Source: Massilia atriviolacea (GTDB taxonomy: Bacteria > Pseudomonadota > Gammaproteobacteria > Burkholderiales > Burkholderiaceae_D). From it: a stretch of DNA of 64,000 nucleotides. Under the pieces are notes generated by a model that saw nothing but the letters and a program-made list of their open reading frames with translations, made no database searches and was not told where the DNA came from. Location of the stretch: contig NZ_RXLQ01000006.1 in NCBI RefSeq assembly GCF_003953935.1, positions 1-64,000 on the forward strand, read 5' to 3'. The position numbers and the translations under genes were made by a program. Within the stretch, counting starts at the first letter, position 1. Every line of letters begins with the position of its first letter. Positions 29,434 through 36,998 of this stretch are shown here, in pieces.

Positions 29434-32109
29434 ATGACCAAAACCCTCATCATCGCCGAGAAGCCCTCCGTCGCGAACGATATCGCCAAGACGCTGGGCG
29501 GCTTCACCAAGCACGATGAGTACTTCGAATCGGACGAGTATGTCCTGTCGTCGGCCGTCGGCCACCTGCTCGAAATCGCGGTGCCGGAAGAGCACGACGT
29601 CAAGCGCGGCAAGTGGAGCTTTGCCCACCTGCCCATGATTCCCCCGTATTTCGCGCTCAATCCGATCGCCAAGACCGAGGCCCGTCTCAAGGTCTTGAAC
29701 AAGCTGATCAAGCGCAAGGATGTCACCCAGCTCATCAACGCATGCGACGCCGGGCGCGAGGGCGAGCTGATTTTCCGCCTGATCGCGCAGAACGCCAAGG
29801 CCAAGCAGCCGGTCAAGCGCCTGTGGCTGCAATCGATGACGCCGGGCGCGATCCGCGACGGCTTTTCGAACCTGCGCAGCGACGAAGAAATGCTGCCGCT
29901 GGCCGACGCCGCGCGCTGCCGCTCCGAGGCGGACTGGCTGATCGGCATCAACGGTACCCGCGCCATGACCGCCTTTAATTCGAAGGAAGGCGGCTTCTAC
30001 CTGACCACCGTGGGCCGCGTGCAGACGCCGACCCTGTCGATCGTGGTCGAGCGCGAAGACAAGATCAAGAAATTCGTTTCCCGCGATTACTGGGAAGTGC
30101 GCGCCGAGTTCGTGTGCGCCGCCGGCGTGTACGAAGGGCGCTGGCTGGACCAGTCCTTCAAGAAGGACGAGAACGACCCCGAGAAGCGCGCCGAGCGCCT
30201 GTGGAGCAAGGCGGCCGCCGACAGCATCGCCATGGCCTGCAAGGGCCGCCAGGGCAATGTGACGGAAGAATCGAAGCCGACCACCTCGATGGCGCCGGCC
30301 CTGTTCGACCTGACCAGCCTGCAGCGCGAAGCCAACGGCCGCTTCGGCTTTTCGGCCAAGAACACCTTGGGCCTGGCCCAGGCGCTGTACGAAAAGCACA
30401 AGGTGCTGACCTACCCGCGTACCGATTCGCGCCATTTGCCGGAAGACTACATCAACACCGTCAAGGACACCATGGTGAGCCTGGCGGAAAACAATAACTA
30501 CCACCAGTTCGCCAAGCAGATCACCGACAAGGGCTGGGTCAAGCCGAACAAGCGCATCTTCGACAACACCAAGATTTCGGACCACTTCGCGATCATCCCG
30601 ACCACCCTGGCGCCGAAGAACCTGTCGGAGCCGGAACAGAAGCTGTACGACCTGGTCACGCGCCGCTTCATGGCCGTGTTCTTCCCGCCGGCGGAATTCC
30701 AGGTCACCACCCGCTTTACCGACGTGTCCGGCCACCAGTTCAAGACCGAAGGCAAGGTCATGACCAATCCGGGCTGGCTGGCGATCTACGGCAAGGAAGC
30801 CTCGACCGACAGCGACAAGGACGACAACACCGGCGGCAATCTGGTTCCCGTGGCCAAGGGCGAAAAAGTGCACACCGAAAAAGTCACGCCGAACGCCCTG
30901 GTCACCAAGCCGCCCGCGCGCTACTCGGAAGCGACCCTGCTGTCCGCCATGGAAGGCGCCGGCAAGCTGATCGACGACGACGAACTGCGCGACGCCATGG
31001 CCGGCAAGGGCCTGGGCACGCCGGCGACGCGCGCGGCCATCATCGAAGGCTTGCTGGGCGAGCGCTACCTGCTGCGCGAAGGGCGCGAGCTGATGCCGAC
31101 CGCCAAGGCATCCCAGCTGATGACCTTGCTGCGCGGCCTCGGCGTGAACGAACTGACCGCGCCGGAACTGACCGGCGAATGGGAATACAAGCTGTCGCAA
31201 ATGGAGAAGGGCAAGATTTCGCGTGACGAGTTCATGCGCGAAATTGCCCAGATGACGCAGATCATCGTCAAGCGCGCCAAGGAATACAACAACGACACGA
31301 TTCCGGGCGAGTACGCGACCCTGCACACGCCGTGTCCGAACTGCGGCGGCGTGGTCAAGGAAAACTACCGCCGTTTCGCCTGCACCAAATGCGAATTCAA
31401 CATGAGCAAGACGCCTGGCAGCCGCCAGTTCGAGATTGCCGAAGTTGAAGAACTGCTGGAAAAACGCACGATCGGCCCGATGCAGGGCTTCCGCTCGAAG
31501 ATGGGACGTCCGTTCGCCGCGATCCTGCGCATCGTGCGCGACGAAGAGATCAAGAACTTCAAGCTGGAATTCGATTTCGGCCAGAACGACGATGGCGGCG
31601 AAGATGGCGAAGGCGTCGACTTCACCGGCCAGACCGCGCTCGGCCCGTGCCCGAAATGCACCGGCGGCGTCTACGAAATGGGCCTGGCGTATGTGTGCGA
31701 GCACAGCGTGGCCAAGCCGAAGACCTGCGACTTCCGCAGCGGCCGCATCATCCTGCAGCAGGAGATTTTGCCCGAGCAGATGGTCAAGCTGCTCAACGAC
31801 GGCAAGACCGACCTGATGCCGGGCTTCGTGTCGCAGCGTACGCGTCGTCCGTTCAAGGCTTTCCTGGTCAAGGGCAAGGACGGCAAGATCAGCTTCGAGT
31901 TCGAAGAACGCAAGGCCAAAGCGCCGGCCAAGGGCAAGGCTGCGGCGGTAGCCGATCCGGAAGGCGGCGACGAGGCGGCACCGGCCACGGCCAAGAAAGC
32001 CGCGCCAGCCAAGAAAGCGGCGGCCAAGAAGGCGCCGGCGAAAAAGGCGGCCGCCAAGAAACCGGCTGCGAAGAAAGCCGCTGTCAAGAAGGCCGCTAGC
32101 GAGGAATAA
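29434..32109 (+). CDS. topB: Type IA DNA topoisomerase (topoisomerase III-like) with zinc modules and basic tail
   Basis: Encodes 891 residues. The Toprim domain has IIAEKPSVAND at the start and DAGREGE near residue 108; the active-site tyrosine is Y327 in LTYPRTDSR. Two C-terminal cysteine modules follow (CPNCGG...CTKCEF about 632-655 and CPKCTGG...C about 737-767), then a Lys/Ala-rich histone H1-like tail over the last 45 residues. It relaxes negative supercoils or decatenates DNA. The N-terminus and insert pattern look more like TopB than TopA. A TATAAT at 29324-29329 may be part of its promoter; a terminator follows. Confidence 0.88.
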   Translation: MTKTLIIAEKPSVANDIAKTLGGFTKHDEYFESDEYVLSSAVGHLLEIAVPEEHDVKRGKWSFAHLPMIPPYFALNPIAKTEARLKVLNKLIKRKDVTQLINACDAGREGELIFRLIAQNAKAKQPVKRLWLQSMTPGAIRDGFSNLRSDEEMLPLADAARCRSEADWLIGINGTRAMTAFNSKEGGFYLTTVGRVQTPTLSIVVEREDKIKKFVSRDYWEVRAEFVCAAGVYEGRWLDQSFKKDENDPEKRAERLWSKAAADSIAMACKGRQGNVTEESKPTTSMAPALFDLTSLQREANGRFGFSAKNTLGLAQALYEKHKVLTYPRTDSRHLPEDYINTVKDTMVSLAENNNYHQFAKQITDKGWVKPNKRIFDNTKISDHFAIIPTTLAPKNLSEPEQKLYDLVTRRFMAVFFPPAEFQVTTRFTDVSGHQFKTEGKVMTNPGWLAIYGKEASTDSDKDDNTGGNLVPVAKGEKVHTEKVTPNALVTKPPARYSEATLLSAMEGAGKLIDDDELRDAMAGKGLGTPATRAAIIEGLLGERYLLREGRELMPTAKASQLMTLLRGLGVNELTAPELTGEWEYKLSQMEKGKISRDEFMREIAQMTQIIVKRAKEYNNDTIPGEYATLHTPCPNCGGVVKENYRRFACTKCEFNMSKTPGSRQFEIAEVEELLEKRTIGPMQGFRSKMGRPFAAILRIVRDEEIKNFKLEFDFGQNDDGGEDGEGVDFTGQTALGPCPKCTGGVYEMGLAYVCEHSVAKPKTCDFRSGRIILQQEILPEQMVKLLNDGKTDLMPGFVSQRTRRPFKAFLVKGKDGKISFEFEERKAKAPAKGKAAAVADPEGGDEAAPATAKKAAPAKKAAAKKAPAKKAAAKKPAAKKAAVKKAASEE

Positions 32110-32284: not shown

Positions 32285-34399
32285 TTGCCATCCGTATTGC
32301 GCCTTCCCCGGCCGCCCGCACTGTCTCTGCGCCCGGTTCACCGTGCCGTCCTGCTGATCTGCGCGCTGGGAAGCGCCGCGCCCGCCAACGCCGCCGCCGA
32401 CCTGCCTGCGCCTGCGGGCGACACCCAGGTCGTGGAAATCAGGGGCAGCAAGGAGGACGACGGGCGCGCCGCCGCCAGCGCCAGGGCGCGCGCCTTGCCC
32501 GGCACCGTCAGCGCCATCACGGCGCAGGAGATCGCCACACTCAATCTGGGGCGCGACATTTCCAACATCTTCCGGCGCGTGCCGGGCGTGGTCGCCAACA
32601 ACATCGACCAGGGCGACACCGGCAACGGCTTTCGCATGCGCGGCTTCGCCACCCAGGGCACGCACGGCGCCGACACCGCCATCAGCATCGATGGCGTGCC
32701 GCAGAATATCCCGTCGAGCCAGGGCGGGGCCGGCCACGGACCGGCCTTCCTCGAATGGATGAGCGCCGACATGATCGACACCGTCGACGTCGTCAAAGGC
32801 CCGGTATCGGCCCTGTACGGCGACCAGAACCGGGCCGGCTCGGTGTTCATCGCCACGCGCGAGGGCGGCGCCGCCACCCCGTCCAGCGCCGCGCTCACGC
32901 TCGACAGCCACGGCGGCCGGCGCGGCTCGCTGACCCTGTCGGGCGAGTATGCGAACGTTCGCTCGCTGCTGGTGGCGGAGCGCTACCGCAGCGATGGCTT
33001 CCGCCACGGCGGCGGCAACGACCGCGAGAACCTGTTCTGGAAGCTGTCGACCACGATCGGCGATGGTCTCTACAGCCTGCGCGCCAGCTACTACCGCTCG
33101 GACTACGCGGGCGCCGGCTACCTGTCGCTGCCGGCCTTGCAGGCCGGGCTCGATCCGCATTCGGTCCAGTTCAACCTGCCCGGCTTCGGCGCCGCGCAGC
33201 GCACCTCGCTGGTGTTCAAGCGCGCACCCGCGCGCGGGGAGGCCGGCTGGTTCGCTACCGTGTATGCGGAAGACTTCGAACGCAGCCGCGCCATCGCCAC
33301 CAGCGCCAGCGGCCACACCTTCGGCTACGACGATCGCAGCATCGGCGGCGCGCGCGCCGGCCATACCTGGGTCGTCGGCGACCGTGCGGTGCTGACCGTG
33401 GGCGCCGACACGCGCAGGGACAAGGGCGACGCGCTGCGCCGCCAGTACCTGCTGCGCCAGCCGACCGCCAACTACGTCAACAACCAGCAGCTCGACCTGC
33501 TCACCTACGGCGCCTTCGTGCAGGGCCAGTACCGCATCCTGCCGACGGTGAAGCTGCATGCCGGCGCGCGTTACGACCGCTTCGACTACGACCTGGTGAA
33601 CCGCAAGCTGCCCGCCGCCTCGACCGGCTACGAGGGCTCGGTGCTCACGCCGAAATACGGCGCCATCTGGACCGTGCTGCCCGACCTGGAGCTGTTCGCC
33701 AATGTCGCCCAGGGCTTGCGCTCGCCGGCTGCGGAGCAGATCAGCGCGAGCGGCAGCCCTGGCCCGCTCGGCGCCGCCGGCGGCAGGGTCAACGCGGCCA
33801 TCGATCCGAGCAAGGTGCGCTCGCACGACATCGGCTTGAATGCGAAAGTGGCGGGCGGCTGGCGCCTCGCCGGCGCGCTGTACGCGATCGGCAACGACGA
33901 CGACATCGTCAACAGCGCGCCCGACGTCTTTGTCGCATCGGGCCAGACCACGCGCCGGGGCCTGGAAGTGGATGTGCGCTACCAGCCGGACAACACCTTC
34001 AGCGCTTCGCTGAGCTACGGCCGCATCCTGCGCGCGCGGCTCGACAACCCGGCCCCCGGCGCGGGCGCGCTGCTGTCGGTGCCGGCGCATACCTGGAAGG
34101 CGGGCGCGCAGCACCGCAGCGTGATCGGTGCGGGCAGGCTGACCGTCAACGGCGACGTGTACGTCAGCGCGCGCAATCCGTATTACAGCGGCACGCCATC
34201 GGTGCGGCGCGACATGCCGACCTTCGTGCGCTACGACGTCAAGGCGAGCTACGATATCGGCAGGTTCCAGGGTGCGCTGTTCGCCACCTTGCAGCCGCAC
34301 CGGTTCGCCAGCGACATCGCCTACGGCACTGCCGCCGGCCTGCTGGTGTCGACCGTGCCGCGCGCGCAGGGCGGGGCGTCGCTGCGCTACTTCTTCTGA
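32285..34399 (+). CDS. TonB-dependent outer-membrane receptor, probably for a ferric siderophore
   Basis: Encodes 704 residues: signal peptide to about residue 36, a TonB-box-like segment (TQVVEIRGS), plug domain (about 65-190, with VPGVVANN, MRGFATQG, SIDGVPQN, VDVVKGPVSALYG) and a C-terminal beta-barrel ending in Phe (SLRYFF). Start is a TTG with GGAG 8 bases upstream; no better start retains the signal peptide. The Fur-like box upstream supports an iron substrate. No siderophore genes, FecI/FecR or permease are near, so it likely scavenges a foreign siderophore. It is 114 bases from the convergent coaD-like gene. Confidence 0.88.
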   Translation: MPSVLRLPRPPALSLRPVHRAVLLICALGSAAPANAAADLPAPAGDTQVVEIRGSKEDDGRAAASARARALPGTVSAITAQEIATLNLGRDISNIFRRVPGVVANNIDQGDTGNGFRMRGFATQGTHGADTAISIDGVPQNIPSSQGGAGHGPAFLEWMSADMIDTVDVVKGPVSALYGDQNRAGSVFIATREGGAATPSSAALTLDSHGGRRGSLTLSGEYANVRSLLVAERYRSDGFRHGGGNDRENLFWKLSTTIGDGLYSLRASYYRSDYAGAGYLSLPALQAGLDPHSVQFNLPGFGAAQRTSLVFKRAPARGEAGWFATVYAEDFERSRAIATSASGHTFGYDDRSIGGARAGHTWVVGDRAVLTVGADTRRDKGDALRRQYLLRQPTANYVNNQQLDLLTYGAFVQGQYRILPTVKLHAGARYDRFDYDLVNRKLPAASTGYEGSVLTPKYGAIWTVLPDLELFANVAQGLRSPAAEQISASGSPGPLGAAGGRVNAAIDPSKVRSHDIGLNAKVAGGWRLAGALYAIGNDDDIVNSAPDVFVASGQTTRRGLEVDVRYQPDNTFSASLSYGRILRARLDNPAPGAGALLSVPAHTWKAGAQHRSVIGAGRLTVNGDVYVSARNPYYSGTPSVRRDMPTFVRYDVKASYDIGRFQGALFATLQPHRFASDIAYGTAAGLLVSTVPRAQGGASLRYFF

Positions 34400-34513: not shown

Positions 34514-35668
34514 TTACGGCGATTCGCCCGCAAACGACTGGCGCTCGCGCAGCGTATCGAGCTCGCGCGCCAGGTTCTCCTGCGCGCGTTCGTTGTACAG
34601 GTCCGCGAAATACGCATCCGGATACAGCGTGCCCGCCCTGGCCTGGGCATGAAAATGCGCCAGGATGCGTTCGCGCCCGGCGAGATAGTCCGCCTCTTCG
34701 ATGTGCCGGTATTCGGCCCGCACCGCGCGCGCATAGCCGTCGTACACATCGGGCGCCTGGCCGAGGATCGCCAGGTCCACGCCCTGCATCACGTCCTGCA
34801 GCGCATGGCGCGCCGCCGCCGGCGCCAGATGCTCGGTGGCGCGAATCAGGGCAGCCACCTCGCCGGCCGCCGCGCCGCTGTCGAGAGCGGACGAAAGCCA
34901 CAGCTGCGCGCTCTGTTCTTCGTTCGATCCGCTGCCGCTGCCGCCGCCGTACACCGCATCGTGGAACCAGAACGCCTTTTTCAGCATCGCCATCTGCGCC
35001 GCACCGGCGCCGGCGTTGGCCGCCCACACCGTGATCTCGGTCAGGCCGTGCACCAGGTGATCGAGGTTGTGATACGGCCGTGCCTCGGCACCGTAGGCGC
35101 TCTCGCCGGTCAGGCGCGCGAACCAGGCGCCGGCGTTGGCGTCATCGGCCGGCCACAGGCTGTCCCATTCCTTGCGCAGCCAGTCCAGGATCCAGGCGGC
35201 GTAGGCCGGCGCCGGCATGAACTGGCGCGTGGTCCAGTGCCAGCCGACCGGTCCCTGCAAGCCGCGCACGAAACTCGAACTGACCGAGCCCAGGTCGCGC
35301 GGCGGCATCACGAACAGCGTTTTGGCGCCGTGCAGCACGTCGACGTTGGCTTGCTGGATCAGGTTCTCGTAATCGAAGTCCGAGGTGTTGCGGATGCCCC
35401 GGATCAGGAAGTCGATGCCCAGCCGCTTGGCCGCGCGCGCCGTGTAGTCGCCGCGCACCAGCACCACGCTGACATTGGTCCAGCCCTGCGCGGCCACGCT
35501 GCGTTCGACGATGTCCTTGCGCGAGGCGGCGTGGAACTGCGGCTTCTTGAACGGGTTTTCGGAGATCAGGACGACGACTTCGTCGGCCAGTTCGCGCGCT
35601 TCGCCGATCACCCACAGGTGGCCGTTGGTGATCGGATCGAGCGTGCCGGAGAAGGCGATTTTTTTCAA
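34514..35668 (-). CDS. Fusion of CoaD-like adenylyltransferase and HD-type phosphohydrolase
   Basis: Encodes 384 residues, more than twice a normal CoaD (about 160). Residues 1-162 are a phosphopantetheine adenylyltransferase: FSGTLDPITNGHL with the HxGH-type TNGH ending at H17, LIRGIRNTSDFDYE, and the S-S-S motif near 130. Residues 163-384 resemble the predicted HD-superfamily phosphohydrolases of COG4339: YHNLDHL (H200, H204), FHDAVYGG (H236-D237), NEEQSA and a later VDLAILG. The start is TTG 35668 with GGAG 7 bases upstream, 3 bases after coaE. The N-terminal half should make dephospho-CoA; the HD half's substrate is unknown. A normal coaD probably exists elsewhere (inference). Confidence 0.85.
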   Translation of the reverse strand: MKKIAFSGTLDPITNGHLWVIGEARELADEVVVLISENPFKKPQFHAASRKDIVERSVAAQGWTNVSVVLVRGDYTARAAKRLGIDFLIRGIRNTSDFDYENLIQQANVDVLHGAKTLFVMPPRDLGSVSSSFVRGLQGPVGWHWTTRQFMPAPAYAAWILDWLRKEWDSLWPADDANAGAWFARLTGESAYGAEARPYHNLDHLVHGLTEITVWAANAGAGAAQMAMLKKAFWFHDAVYGGGSGSGSNEEQSAQLWLSSALDSGAAAGEVAALIRATEHLAPAAARHALQDVMQGVDLAILGQAPDVYDGYARAVRAEYRHIEEADYLAGRERILAHFHAQARAGTLYPDAYFADLYNERAQENLARELDTLRERQSFAGESP

Positions 35669-35671
35669 GGT

Positions 35672-36277
35672 TCAGCTCCAAAGGTCGGTGTATTTGCGAT
35701 GCAGTTGTTCGGTGAGCACGCGCACCTCGTCGAGCGTGCCGTCGTTTTCCACCACGTCGTCGGCGCGCGCCAGGTAGTCGGCGCGCGCCAGCTGCATGGC
35801 GACCACGCCGGCTACCTGGGCGCGGGTCCAGTCGGGATTGCGCAGGGCGATGCGCGCGGCGCGGTTGCGGTACGCGGCGTCGACCACCAGCACCCTCGTC
35901 GCGGGCAGCGCCTGGTCCATCGCCAGCGCCGACTCCCACACCACGTACGGCGTTTGCTGGCGGCGCGTCCATTCCGCGGCCAGCGCCAGCACCGCCGGGC
36001 GCAGGATGCGCTTGAGTTCCTCGTTGGCGTCCGCATCGAGCGCGAAGATGCTGCGCAGGGTGCCGCGCGCCAGTCTGCCGTCCGCCGCCATCGCCTGCGG
36101 AAAGGCGCGCGCGATCTGCAGCGTGGCCGGATGCGCCGGGTCCTGGTGCACGGTGCGCGCCAGGGCGTCGGCATCGATGCAGGGCACGCCCAGCGCTTCG
36201 AATGCACGGGCGAAGGTCGACTTGCCGCTGCCGATCCCGCCGGTCAGCACCAGTACCCTGGGGGGTGTTGCGCTCAT
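35672..36277 (-). CDS. coaE: Dephospho-CoA kinase
   Basis: Phosphorylates the 3-prime hydroxyl of dephospho-CoA, the last step of CoA synthesis. The 201 residues start with a P-loop, LTGGIGSGKSTFARAFEALG, followed by PCIDADALAR and, near residue 125, the conserved lid region. ATG 36277 has GGAG 6 bases upstream; the open frame reaches further but lacks family similarity. In Burkholderiales coaE usually lies by pilD and zapD, so this may be a second copy. It forms a two-gene unit with the coaD-HD fusion and is divergent from a TetR gene. Confidence 0.9.
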   Translation of the reverse strand: MSATPPRVLVLTGGIGSGKSTFARAFEALGVPCIDADALARTVHQDPAHPATLQIARAFPQAMAADGRLARGTLRSIFALDADANEELKRILRPAVLALAAEWTRRQQTPYVVWESALAMDQALPATRVLVVDAAYRNRAARIALRNPDWTRAQVAGVVAMQLARADYLARADDVVENDGTLDEVRVLTEQLHRKYTDLWS

Positions 36278-36297
36278 TTCGTGCTCCGTTCGATTAT

Positions 36298-36372
36298 TTG
36301 GTTGCTCACCCAATATTGTGAGGTTAGCGAAAGCCGGCGCGGAAAACAAGTATAATTTGGTCAATCAACCAA
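36298..36372. promoter_or_regulatory. Two related TetR-type operator candidates
   Basis: Sites 36298-36313 (TTGGTTGCTCACCCAA) and 36357-36372 (TTGGTCAATCAACCAA) agree at 12 of 16 positions and each has TTGG/CCAA dyad ends. One lies just upstream of coaE and the other just upstream of the tetR start, next to a TATAAT at 36351-36356. The spacing of 59 bases is close to a whole number of helical turns. Binding by the adjacent TetR protein is inference. Confidence 0.65.
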
Positions 36373-36389
36373 TTTAAGTGACAACACGT

Positions 36390-36998
36390 ATGTCGAGGAA
36401 GCCGAATTCGGAGCAGCGCCGCGCGCAGATCGTGCAGGCGCTGATGGACACGATGGCCGAACATGGCTACGAAAAGGCCACCATCCAGTTGATCGCGCGC
36501 CGCGCCGGGCTCACGCCCGGCCTGCTGCACTACCATTTTCACAGCAAAGCCGACATCCTGCTGGCGCTGGTGAAGGCGCTCGCCGGGGCGGCGCAGCAGC
36601 GCTACCAGGCGTTCGCGCAGGACGCGCAGGACGACGGCCAGCGCCTCGGCGCCTACATCGACGCGCGCCTGGGCCTGGGCGAGGGTGCGGACGCGGGCGC
36701 GGTGGCCGCGTGGGTGGTGATCGGCGCCGAAGCGGTGCGCCAGCCGGAGGTGCGGGCAGCCTACCGGCACGCCATCGATACCGAAACGGCGCTGCTGCGC
36801 GAACTGCTGTCGGCCAGCCTGGCCGCGCACGGCAAAAGCACGGCCAACGCGCAGGCGCTGGCGGCTGCCTTGCTGGCGATGATGGAGGGGACTTTTCAAC
36901 TGGCCAGCGTGGCGCCGGCCGGCATGCCGGCGGGGTTCGCGGCGCCGATGGCCGCGCAACTGGTGCGCCGCTTTATCGACGCCGAGCCGCCGGCGTAG
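36390..36998 (+). CDS. TetR-family transcriptional regulator
   Basis: Encodes 202 residues with the N-terminal TetR helix-turn-helix (RRAQIVQALMDTMAEHGYEK, then IARRAGLTPGLLHYHFHSKADIL, about residues 10-56) and a helical ligand/dimerisation domain. The RAGLTPGLLHYHF recognition helix is of the BetI-like type. It is divergent from coaE and the coaD-HD fusion, with two matching dyad sites in the 112-base gap, so it is likely autoregulated and represses that unit. The ligand is unknown; an acyl-CoA or pantetheine derivative would be a reasonable guess. Confidence 0.9.
   Translation: MSRKPNSEQRRAQIVQALMDTMAEHGYEKATIQLIARRAGLTPGLLHYHFHSKADILLALVKALAGAAQQRYQAFAQDAQDDGQRLGAYIDARLGLGEGADAGAVAAWVVIGAEAVRQPEVRAAYRHAIDTETALLRELLSASLAAHGKSTANAQALAAALLAMMEGTFQLASVAPAGMPAGFAAPMAAQLVRRFIDAEPPA

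Follow-up and report, generated by a model that had tools for sequence, protein, structure and literature searches.

A CoaD-HD phosphohydrolase fusion encoded with a second coaE and a divergent tetR in Massilia atriviolacea: a possible second, repressible coenzyme A-finishing operon

A 64,000-nucleotide stretch of Massilia atriviolacea DNA (NCBI RefSeq assembly GCF_003953935.1, contig NZ_RXLQ01000006.1, positions 1 to 64,000; here called the window) contains a minus-strand gene, at positions 34514 to 35668, that encodes a CoaD-HD fusion of 384 amino acids, read from a TTG start without an internal stop. Residues 1 to 166 (35171 to 35668, minus strand) form a CoaD (phosphopantetheine adenylyltransferase, PPAT) half with a GHLW motif, and residues 169 to 374 (34547 to 35164, minus strand), as delimited by an alignment of 45 rows and a structure model, form an HD phosphohydrolase half. 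Upstream on the same strand lies coaE2 (35672 to 36277), predicted to encode a second dephospho-coenzyme A (dephospho-CoA) kinase (DPCK), whose stop at 35672 is separated by 3 bases from the start of the fusion, and a divergent gene on the plus strand (36390 to 36998) encodes a TetR-family regulator of 202 amino acids. A first-pass annotation of this DNA had described a CoaD-HD fusion coupled to a complete coaE and facing a TetR gene; the single intact open reading frame (ORF), a CoaD half that passes its family cut-off, conserved HD active-site residues, the 3-base spacing and the divergent tetR bear this description out.

The coaE2 product matches PF01121 (119.1 bits) and TIGR00152 (84.7 bits against a cut-off of 65.55) and contains the P-loop GGIGSGKS. 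Because of a comparison with orthologues, we consider the ATG at 36277 (201 amino acids) a more likely start than the listed TTG at 36364, to which the ORF can be extended. The tetR product matches Pfam TetR_N (50.4 bits), and its more likely start is the ATG at 36390 rather than the GTG at 36378 from which the ORF was listed. All 12 aligned coaE2 products, the window's included, have WESAL where the resident CoaE has YVVPL.

In a species-level collection, 115 stretches encode a relative of the fusion, of which the best 80 were kept to give, with the window, 81 loci. Since these 80 further loci encode the fusion, in independent assemblies, it is not an assembly artefact, and a sequencing or assembly join of two genes was ruled out. 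The window's protein is 92 to 93% identical, across all 384 residues, to its four nearest orthologues (from four named Massilia species), and against these the ratio of nonsynonymous to synonymous substitution rates (dN/dS) is 0.00 to 0.04 in the CoaD half and 0.15 to 0.18 in the HD half; judged by these comparisons, purifying selection acts on both halves. The AlphaFold2 structure prediction for the whole fusion has a mean predicted local distance difference test score (pLDDT) of 88.7 and a predicted template modeling score of 0.87.

The N-terminal half matches the CTP_transf_like family in a family scan and, over residues 6 to 139, the CoaD model TIGR01510 with 116.5 bits against a cut-off of 103.3, while the best NadD model reaches 22.4 bits, so that the transferase is not a NadD. 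The 50 Foldseek matches listed for this half are all PPAT/CoaD (best E value, 4.1e-9), and the TNGH, RGxR and SSS motifs, which we take to be the nucleotidyltransferase motifs of CoaD, are invariant or nearly so across the fusion rows. In fold, motifs and family cut-off, this half is like other bacterial CoaD/PPAT proteins (TIGR01510; PDB 1b6t, 1gn8, 3nd5 and others); it differs in the long branches that split it from the resident CoaD and in its extension by the HD half. Two stretches are altered in the fusion, at positions that we presume to be those of the corresponding E. coli CoaD motifs: D-Y-T replaces the usual L-L stretch, and A or G stands at the Glu of the VKEV motif.

A search of the whole genome (7.36 Mb, 80 contigs) found two CoaDs over the TIGR01510 cut-off (186.2 bits for the resident protein and 118.9 for the fusion) and two CoaEs (193.7 bits for the resident protein and 119.6 for CoaE2). 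On contig 34, the resident coaD immediately follows an rsmD-like gene; the resident coaE lies between a prepilin-peptidase (pilD) gene and a zapD-like gene (these neighbors were named by eye); canonical copies had been predicted near rsmD and near pilD/zapD. The cassette is thus a second set, because canonical coaD and coaE are also present. The first-pass annotation had called this set likely to be paralogous, which holds for the presence of a second set and fails for the CoaD half as a duplicate of the resident coaD. The two CoaDs share 28% identity, and in a 61-row CoaD tree all 10 fusion rows included form one clade (support, 100/99), whereas the canonical Massilia CoaD belongs to a 34-row clade (100/100) at the far end of the tree; the identity and the tree position together ruled out a recent duplication. 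The fusion rows fall within a 15-row clade (100/99) that also holds the stand-alone CoaDs P0236, P0239, P0243 and P0246, as well as P0264, whose placement is unsure because of its long branch. P0264 (221 amino acids) consists of a CoaD followed by the beginning of the same HD domain, namely, profile positions 1 to 33 (24.5 bits), the remainder being missing. By these sequence comparisons, the CoaD half is an older, separate CoaD lineage.

CoaDs with the GHLW motif form a grade in the tree rather than a single clade. In two genomes (G250 and G491), a GHLW-motif CoaD is the sole match over the TIGR01510 cut-off, and these CoaDs branch off in the tree between the region that holds the fusion and the canonical clade. 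The motif thus appears to go with a working CoaD, which bears on those proteins and does not demonstrate the function of the fusion clade itself. We rejected the altered CoaD residues as too weak a mark of a new substrate, since CoaDs that are the sole matches over the cut-off in their genomes also depart at these positions. A 2.17-Mb Neisseria gonorrhoeae record in the plasmid collection gave a single match to the fusion's CoaD half.

Among 145 genomes of the family, 25 contain the fusion and 14 contain a stand-alone HD gene, and the two never occur together. A canonical CoaD is also found, among the matches listed, in 24 of the 25 fusion genomes, the exception (G044) being 68% complete. A second full-length coaE is present in four of the 145 genomes (G000, G016, G125 and G138), always beside the fusion; the fifth match to a second coaE (G060) covers a fragment of 40 residues where a contig ends.

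The HD half of the window's protein had no Pfam match even at an E value of ≤10, PF01966 included, and a sequence search of the PDB with it found no relative among solved structures; a Foldseek search with its model gave no match at E ≤ 0.001. Searches with the wider family reached further: PF01966 matches at E ≤ 1 in 8 of 45 HD family members (best, 6.2e-6), and the best matches of the family profile in the PDB are 3dto (E value, 0.0027) and then YedJ, 3gw7 (0.013). The model of the HD half is all-helical, with nine helices, a mean pLDDT of 93.9 and the H...HD...D metal-ligand pattern. At least 97% of the 81 fusion rows retain H200 (part of a YHNxxH motif), H204, H236-D237 and D298, and the corresponding residues H32, H36, H68-D69 and D130 in HD numbering are invariant in 45 rows of fusion and stand-alone proteins; from this conservation, H204, H236-D237 and D298 are the likely metal ligands. 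Stand-alone HD proteins are 28 to 42% identical to the window's HD half and have identical invariant active-site residues. Known as "predicted metal-dependent HD superfamily phosphohydrolase," they have the same domain and lack CoaD; one plasmid record names such a protein "NMDAR2C subunit." The label COG4339 for this family came from the first-pass annotation, and that number was returned by none of our searches.

The 112-bp gap between coaE2 and tetR holds two 16-bp putative TetR operators. Operator 1, TTTGGTTGCTCACCCAAT (36297 to 36314), is beside coaE2, and operator 2, TTTGGTCAATCAACCAAT (36356 to 36373), abuts a TATAAT at 36351 to 36356 that reads toward tetR (both are listed without a strand). 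This TATAAT may act as the -10 element of tetR; a consensus promoter scan did not list it near tetR and gave a single weak site toward coaE2, which overlaps operator 1. Upstream regions of this TetR were taken from 22 rows, of which 15 distinct ones were counted after repeats were dropped (L148 and L149 not included). Two copies of TTGGTYNNTNRACCAA with at most two mismatches, about 60 bp apart, are found in 14 of the 15 regions and one copy in the other, so that 29 sites were observed against 0.08 expected from base shuffles. The earlier claim of a repressible layout gains support from these conserved palindromic putative operators beside tetR. Across the 7.36-Mb genome, the 18-base operator pattern with at most one mismatch occurs twice in the gap and once elsewhere; a role of TetR as a wide regulator was ruled out, as this one extra site equals the one genome match of the reversed control pattern.

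The same TetR is encoded divergently from a 2-oxoglutarate-Fe(II) oxygenase with WD40 repeats in G062 and G098 and from a major facilitator superfamily transporter in G067 and G094. In G062 and G131, this tetR is followed by a codirectional stand-alone HD gene. The oxygenase-WD40 fusion divergent from this TetR, with a stand-alone HD gene nearby, is also seen at L161:2547-4064 and L157:5218-6708. At E ≤ 1e-30, this TetR is found in 10 of the 145 family genomes, 9 of which contain the fusion or a stand-alone HD gene, and in 7 of the 10 the HD part adjoins TetR, sits behind coaE2 or lies within about 2 kb. The fusion is located elsewhere than TetR in G067 and G094, and G113 has TetR without either form of HD. 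Its occurrence with stand-alone HD genes, and elsewhere with unrelated ones, shows that the regulator is not bound to coaD or coaE; its co-occurrence with an HD part in 9 of 10 genomes therefore indicates that it goes with HD more than with coaD or coaE.

Upstream of the fusion, the 81 loci have coaE (14 loci), TetR alone (1 locus), a sensor kinase (60 loci) or none of these (6 loci). In all 14 coaE-type loci, the spacing between coaE and the fusion is -4 to +4 bases, and 8 of them also have TetR. The gene order of the kinase type, whose families were checked in one example (L025), is Hsp20, an HtrA-like protease, an OmpR-type regulator, the sensor kinase and the fusion. The cassette layout described for the window is therefore real, yet it is one of two main contexts. 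At one locus in a metagenome-assembled genome (MAG) labeled Rhodocyclaceae (L016:3104-8512), TetR, coaE2 and coaD-HD are followed by an NrtR-type regulator and a run of nicotinamide adenine dinucleotide (NAD) salvage genes, namely, nicotinamidase-like (assigned by eye, with no Pfam match), nicotinate phosphoribosyltransferase, NAD synthase and NadM-like genes.

Among the best 80 of the 115 stretches, 78 are labeled Massilia, Duganella, Janthinobacterium, Undibacterium, Rugamonas or Pseudoduganella, or simply Oxalobacteraceae, Burkholderiaceae or Burkholderiales, and the remaining two are the Rhodocyclaceae MAG and a Myxococcales MAG. The fusion on the Myxococcales-labeled contig (L023) is 62% identical to the window's, and this contig is perhaps mis-binned Burkholderiales DNA. 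In a sample of 398 genomes of the phylum, with the seven best candidates per genome scored, the window's own genome gave the only fusion-type match, and the 40 other matching genomes scored far lower. Among 7998 candidates scored from a protein database, 543 are related to the fusion at E ≤ 0.001. In the window, a TonB-dependent receptor gene (32285 to 34399) separates the fusion from a topoisomerase-like gene (29434 to 32109, named by eye), and a tonB match at the corresponding place is found in only one of the four nearest relatives (L011).

On plasmids and viral contigs, these parts are found joined in different orders. Four Variovorax megaplasmid records matched, and in the one from which the layout was taken, a 405-amino-acid CoaE-HD protein is encoded by a gene that overlaps coaD by 4 bases. 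This protein scores 65.7 bits with TIGR00152, just above the cut-off of 65.55, and matches the HD profile with an E value of 2.3e-48 in a two-protein search. Genes for a DUF6884 protein, a DGQHR-domain protein and a type I-E Cas6e are found about 3.5 to 5.6 kb from the Variovorax pair (L289:4787-12477). Of the 136 plasmid records that match the CoaE-HD protein, 110 are from Pseudomonas; the Pseudomonas matches listed cover the HD part only, and in one of these plasmids, p243931-IMP, no coaD- or coaE-like frame was found within 6 kb of HD.

Viral contig L282 (169 kb) encodes a CoaD-CoaE fusion, over the cut-off with TIGR01510 (137.4 bits) and under it with TIGR00152 (38.6 bits against 65.55), whose gene overlaps an HD gene without a Pfam match; on L295 (51 kb), a CoaD gene overlaps an HD gene. 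At L303:5938-7668, the gene immediately after HD is of the NadM-Nudix type (321 bits, below the model cut-off of 397); at L318:4965-6749, HD is followed by a nucleotidyltransferase-like frame of similar length, matched only by the CoaD profile (1.4e-8); on L288, HD lies 2.8 kb from NadD (125.4 bits against a cut-off of 112.45). CoaE-CoaD pairs are present on L221 (350 kb) and L281 (424 kb), and at L221:3414-6751, coaE, coaD and a NadM-Nudix-like gene (named by eye) lie within 3.4 kb. Counted from HD queries alone, there are 14 distinct viral HD genes (L300 was dropped, its HD frame being identical to that of L299), 3 of which (L295, L303 and L318) have an adenylyltransferase-like neighbor, and among 26 distinct viral CoaD-like frames (two of them weak), CoaE is adjacent or fused in 4, with HD also present in 1 of these. 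Scans of viral sequences found no relative of the Variovorax CoaE-HD protein and, with the phage CoaE and the CoaD-CoaE fusion as queries, only the contigs from which these came. These fused, overlapping and adjacent layouts lead us to conclude that the HD family accompanies adenylyltransferases that make cofactors containing adenosine monophosphate (AMP).

HD and CoaD matches in the INPHARED records "Acinetobacter phage MD-2021a" and "Microcystis phage MaAM05" were dropped for their bacterial housekeeping neighbors; given rpoH and thiG, and rplA and nusG, in CAKLQH020000004.1 and MW495066.1, these records may hold bacterial DNA. Passages of a published description of the jumbo phage PhiMa05 report a phosphopantetheine adenylyltransferase (ORF34; PMC8093824), so that a phage coaD alone is already in print. 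The MaAM05 record may be the PhiMa05 record, and the doubt would then extend to that claim.

CoaD, NadD and NadM each transfer AMP to a cofactor precursor that bears a phosphate, with release of pyrophosphate, and given this shared chemistry, an HD protein that accompanies them would most simply be a clean-up enzyme. Our preferred reading, held tentatively and somewhat short of probable, is that the locus is a second, repressible CoA-finishing operon whose HD half would serve as a clean-up or proofreading hydrolase in the manner of NadD-YqeK. What the sequence itself provides is the domains with their conserved active-site residues, the additional gene copies, the operators and the joining of the three domains in different orders; from these we infer all activities, the hydrolase substrate, the repression and the existence of a TetR ligand. 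The CoaD half would adenylylate 4'-phosphopantetheine to dephospho-CoA, which CoaE2 would phosphorylate to CoA, and the HD half, as a metal-dependent hydrolase, would cleave wrong or surplus products of adenylyl transfer, as YqeK does for NadD. Candidate substrates would be dinucleotide-type products that are non-adenine, deoxy or oxidized, or by-products, for example, dinucleoside polyphosphates. TetR bound at the two operators in the 112-bp gap would shut both directions until its ligand is sensed.

Passages of a study of mycoplasma YqeK (PMC9426524) report that this HD hydrolase, fused to NadD, hydrolyzes wrong analogues of nicotinic acid adenine dinucleotide as well as 8-oxo-GTP. The arrangement they describe is the same as that of the window's protein, an adenylyltransferase that joins AMP to a cofactor precursor and carries a C-terminal HD phosphohydrolase, with the two as neighboring genes in other genomes. 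The present case differs in having CoaD instead of NadD, in being a second copy with its own TetR and a linkage to CoaE, and in that its HD activity is predicted. An adenylyltransferase with a fused HD corrector is thus known from NadD-YqeK, and what would be new is its counterpart in CoA synthesis, together with the link to CoaE, the TetR sites beside the regulator gene and the variety of layouts. No publication on the pairing of CoaD with HD, or on phage coaD-coaE sets, was found among the matches listed in the literature searched (mainly open-access), so the domain pair did not turn out to be an already characterized family. The NadM-Nudix bifunctional enzyme (PRK05379 models) also joins an adenylyltransferase to a hydrolase, with Nudix instead of HD. 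The last two steps of CoA synthesis are fused in one protein in the eukaryotic bifunctional CoA synthase (PPAT-DPCK); they are likewise tied together here, but with CoaD fused to a hydrolase and CoaE separate, and it is the CoaD-CoaE fusion of L282 that resembles the eukaryotic joining of synthetic domains.

Several results weigh against a clean-up role. Most HD genes of this family stand alone, and since no frame resembling CoaD or CoaE was found in the 1.5 kb or so on either flank of any of 34 chromosomal stand-alone HD loci, the HD domain also works without CoaD. The HD half diverges faster than the CoaD half (47 to 60% against 71 to 87% identity to the window's fusion), coaE is absent upstream in 67 of the 81 fusion loci, and none of 9 further plasmid or phage stretches has both a CoaD- and a CoaE-like frame. 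No YqeK-named NCBIfam match was obtained with the 45 HD members at E ≤ 1, in a library in which the presence of the YqeK model was unconfirmed. The CoaDs of G250 and G491 are no proof of PPAT activity in the fusion clade, because they lie outside it; their position, and the match of the L318 neighbor to the CoaD profile alone, slightly lower our confidence in the clean-up reading and in the modular-system reading given below, and slightly raise it in a product other than CoA. The literature searched contains, among the matches listed, no published activity for this HD family, and for mycoplasma YqeK itself, passages of PMC9426524 report no growth defect upon inactivation.

Three other readings were ranked below that of a clean-up hydrolase. 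The fusion might instead turn over CoA: its HD half would take a phosphate off CoA (the 3'-phosphate) or off a CoA precursor (the 4'-phosphate of phosphopantetheine), and the protein would thereby trim or recycle CoA, with CoaD run in reverse when needed. Enzymes of the HD superfamily are established phosphohydrolases, and HD is joined in one layout to CoaE, in others to CoaD, as would fit action on a metabolite shared by the last two steps; yet to pair a kinase with a phosphatase of the same bond, in one protein or operon, would be futile if regulation were not tight, and HD also adjoins a NadM-Nudix gene, outside CoA metabolism. We regard this reading as unlikely, and less likely again is that HD sanitizes nucleotides in general or hydrolyzes dinucleoside polyphosphates, its link to CoaD being no more than a common transcript. 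Such a role would suit the wide occurrence of non-fusion relatives (40 of the 41 matching genomes in the phylum sample), the 34 stand-alone loci without a CoaD- or CoaE-like neighbor, and the stress setting of the Duganella-type fusion behind Hsp20, HtrA and a two-component system, but the fusion or overlap of HD with CoaD or CoaE in separate layouts suggests that what they have in common is a pathway and not just a transcript.

The least probable of the four is that the cassette makes a CoA-like compound other than CoA for conflict between the cell and mobile elements, with HD as a tailoring or decapping enzyme. Sets of CoaD, CoaE and HD parts on viral contigs (L282, L295, L221 and L281) and megaplasmids, the DGQHR-domain and type I-E cas6e genes near the Variovorax copy, and the WESAL found in 12 of 12 aligned coaE2 products against YVVPL in the resident CoaE would agree with it. 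However, the deviant CoaD residues are largely common to the CoaDs of G250 and G491 and so need not signal a new substrate, with the qualification that those proteins lie outside the fusion's clade.

More speculatively, and with greater doubt than attaches to the clean-up reading itself, CoaE, CoaD and HD may constitute a mobile, modular cofactor-finishing system that occurs in at least three orders (CoaE with CoaD-HD, CoaE-HD with CoaD, and CoaD-CoaE with HD), as well as in a CoaD and HD pair, across chromosomes, megaplasmids and viral contigs. HD would then be a general proofreader for the adenylyltransferases that build CoA and NAD, and Oxalobacteraceae would have domesticated it as a spare CoA line under stress or ligand control. 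This widespread HD family has no known substrate in the literature searched, and its joining to CoaD and CoaE in several orders offers one that can be tested. If the clean-up reading is true, cofactor proofreading by a fused HD domain would be a recurrent solution that covers CoA rather than a peculiarity of NadD-YqeK, some viral contigs and megaplasmids would carry their own CoA-finishing sets, and the retention of a further, repressible pair by a cell whose own coaD and coaE are sound would be explained.

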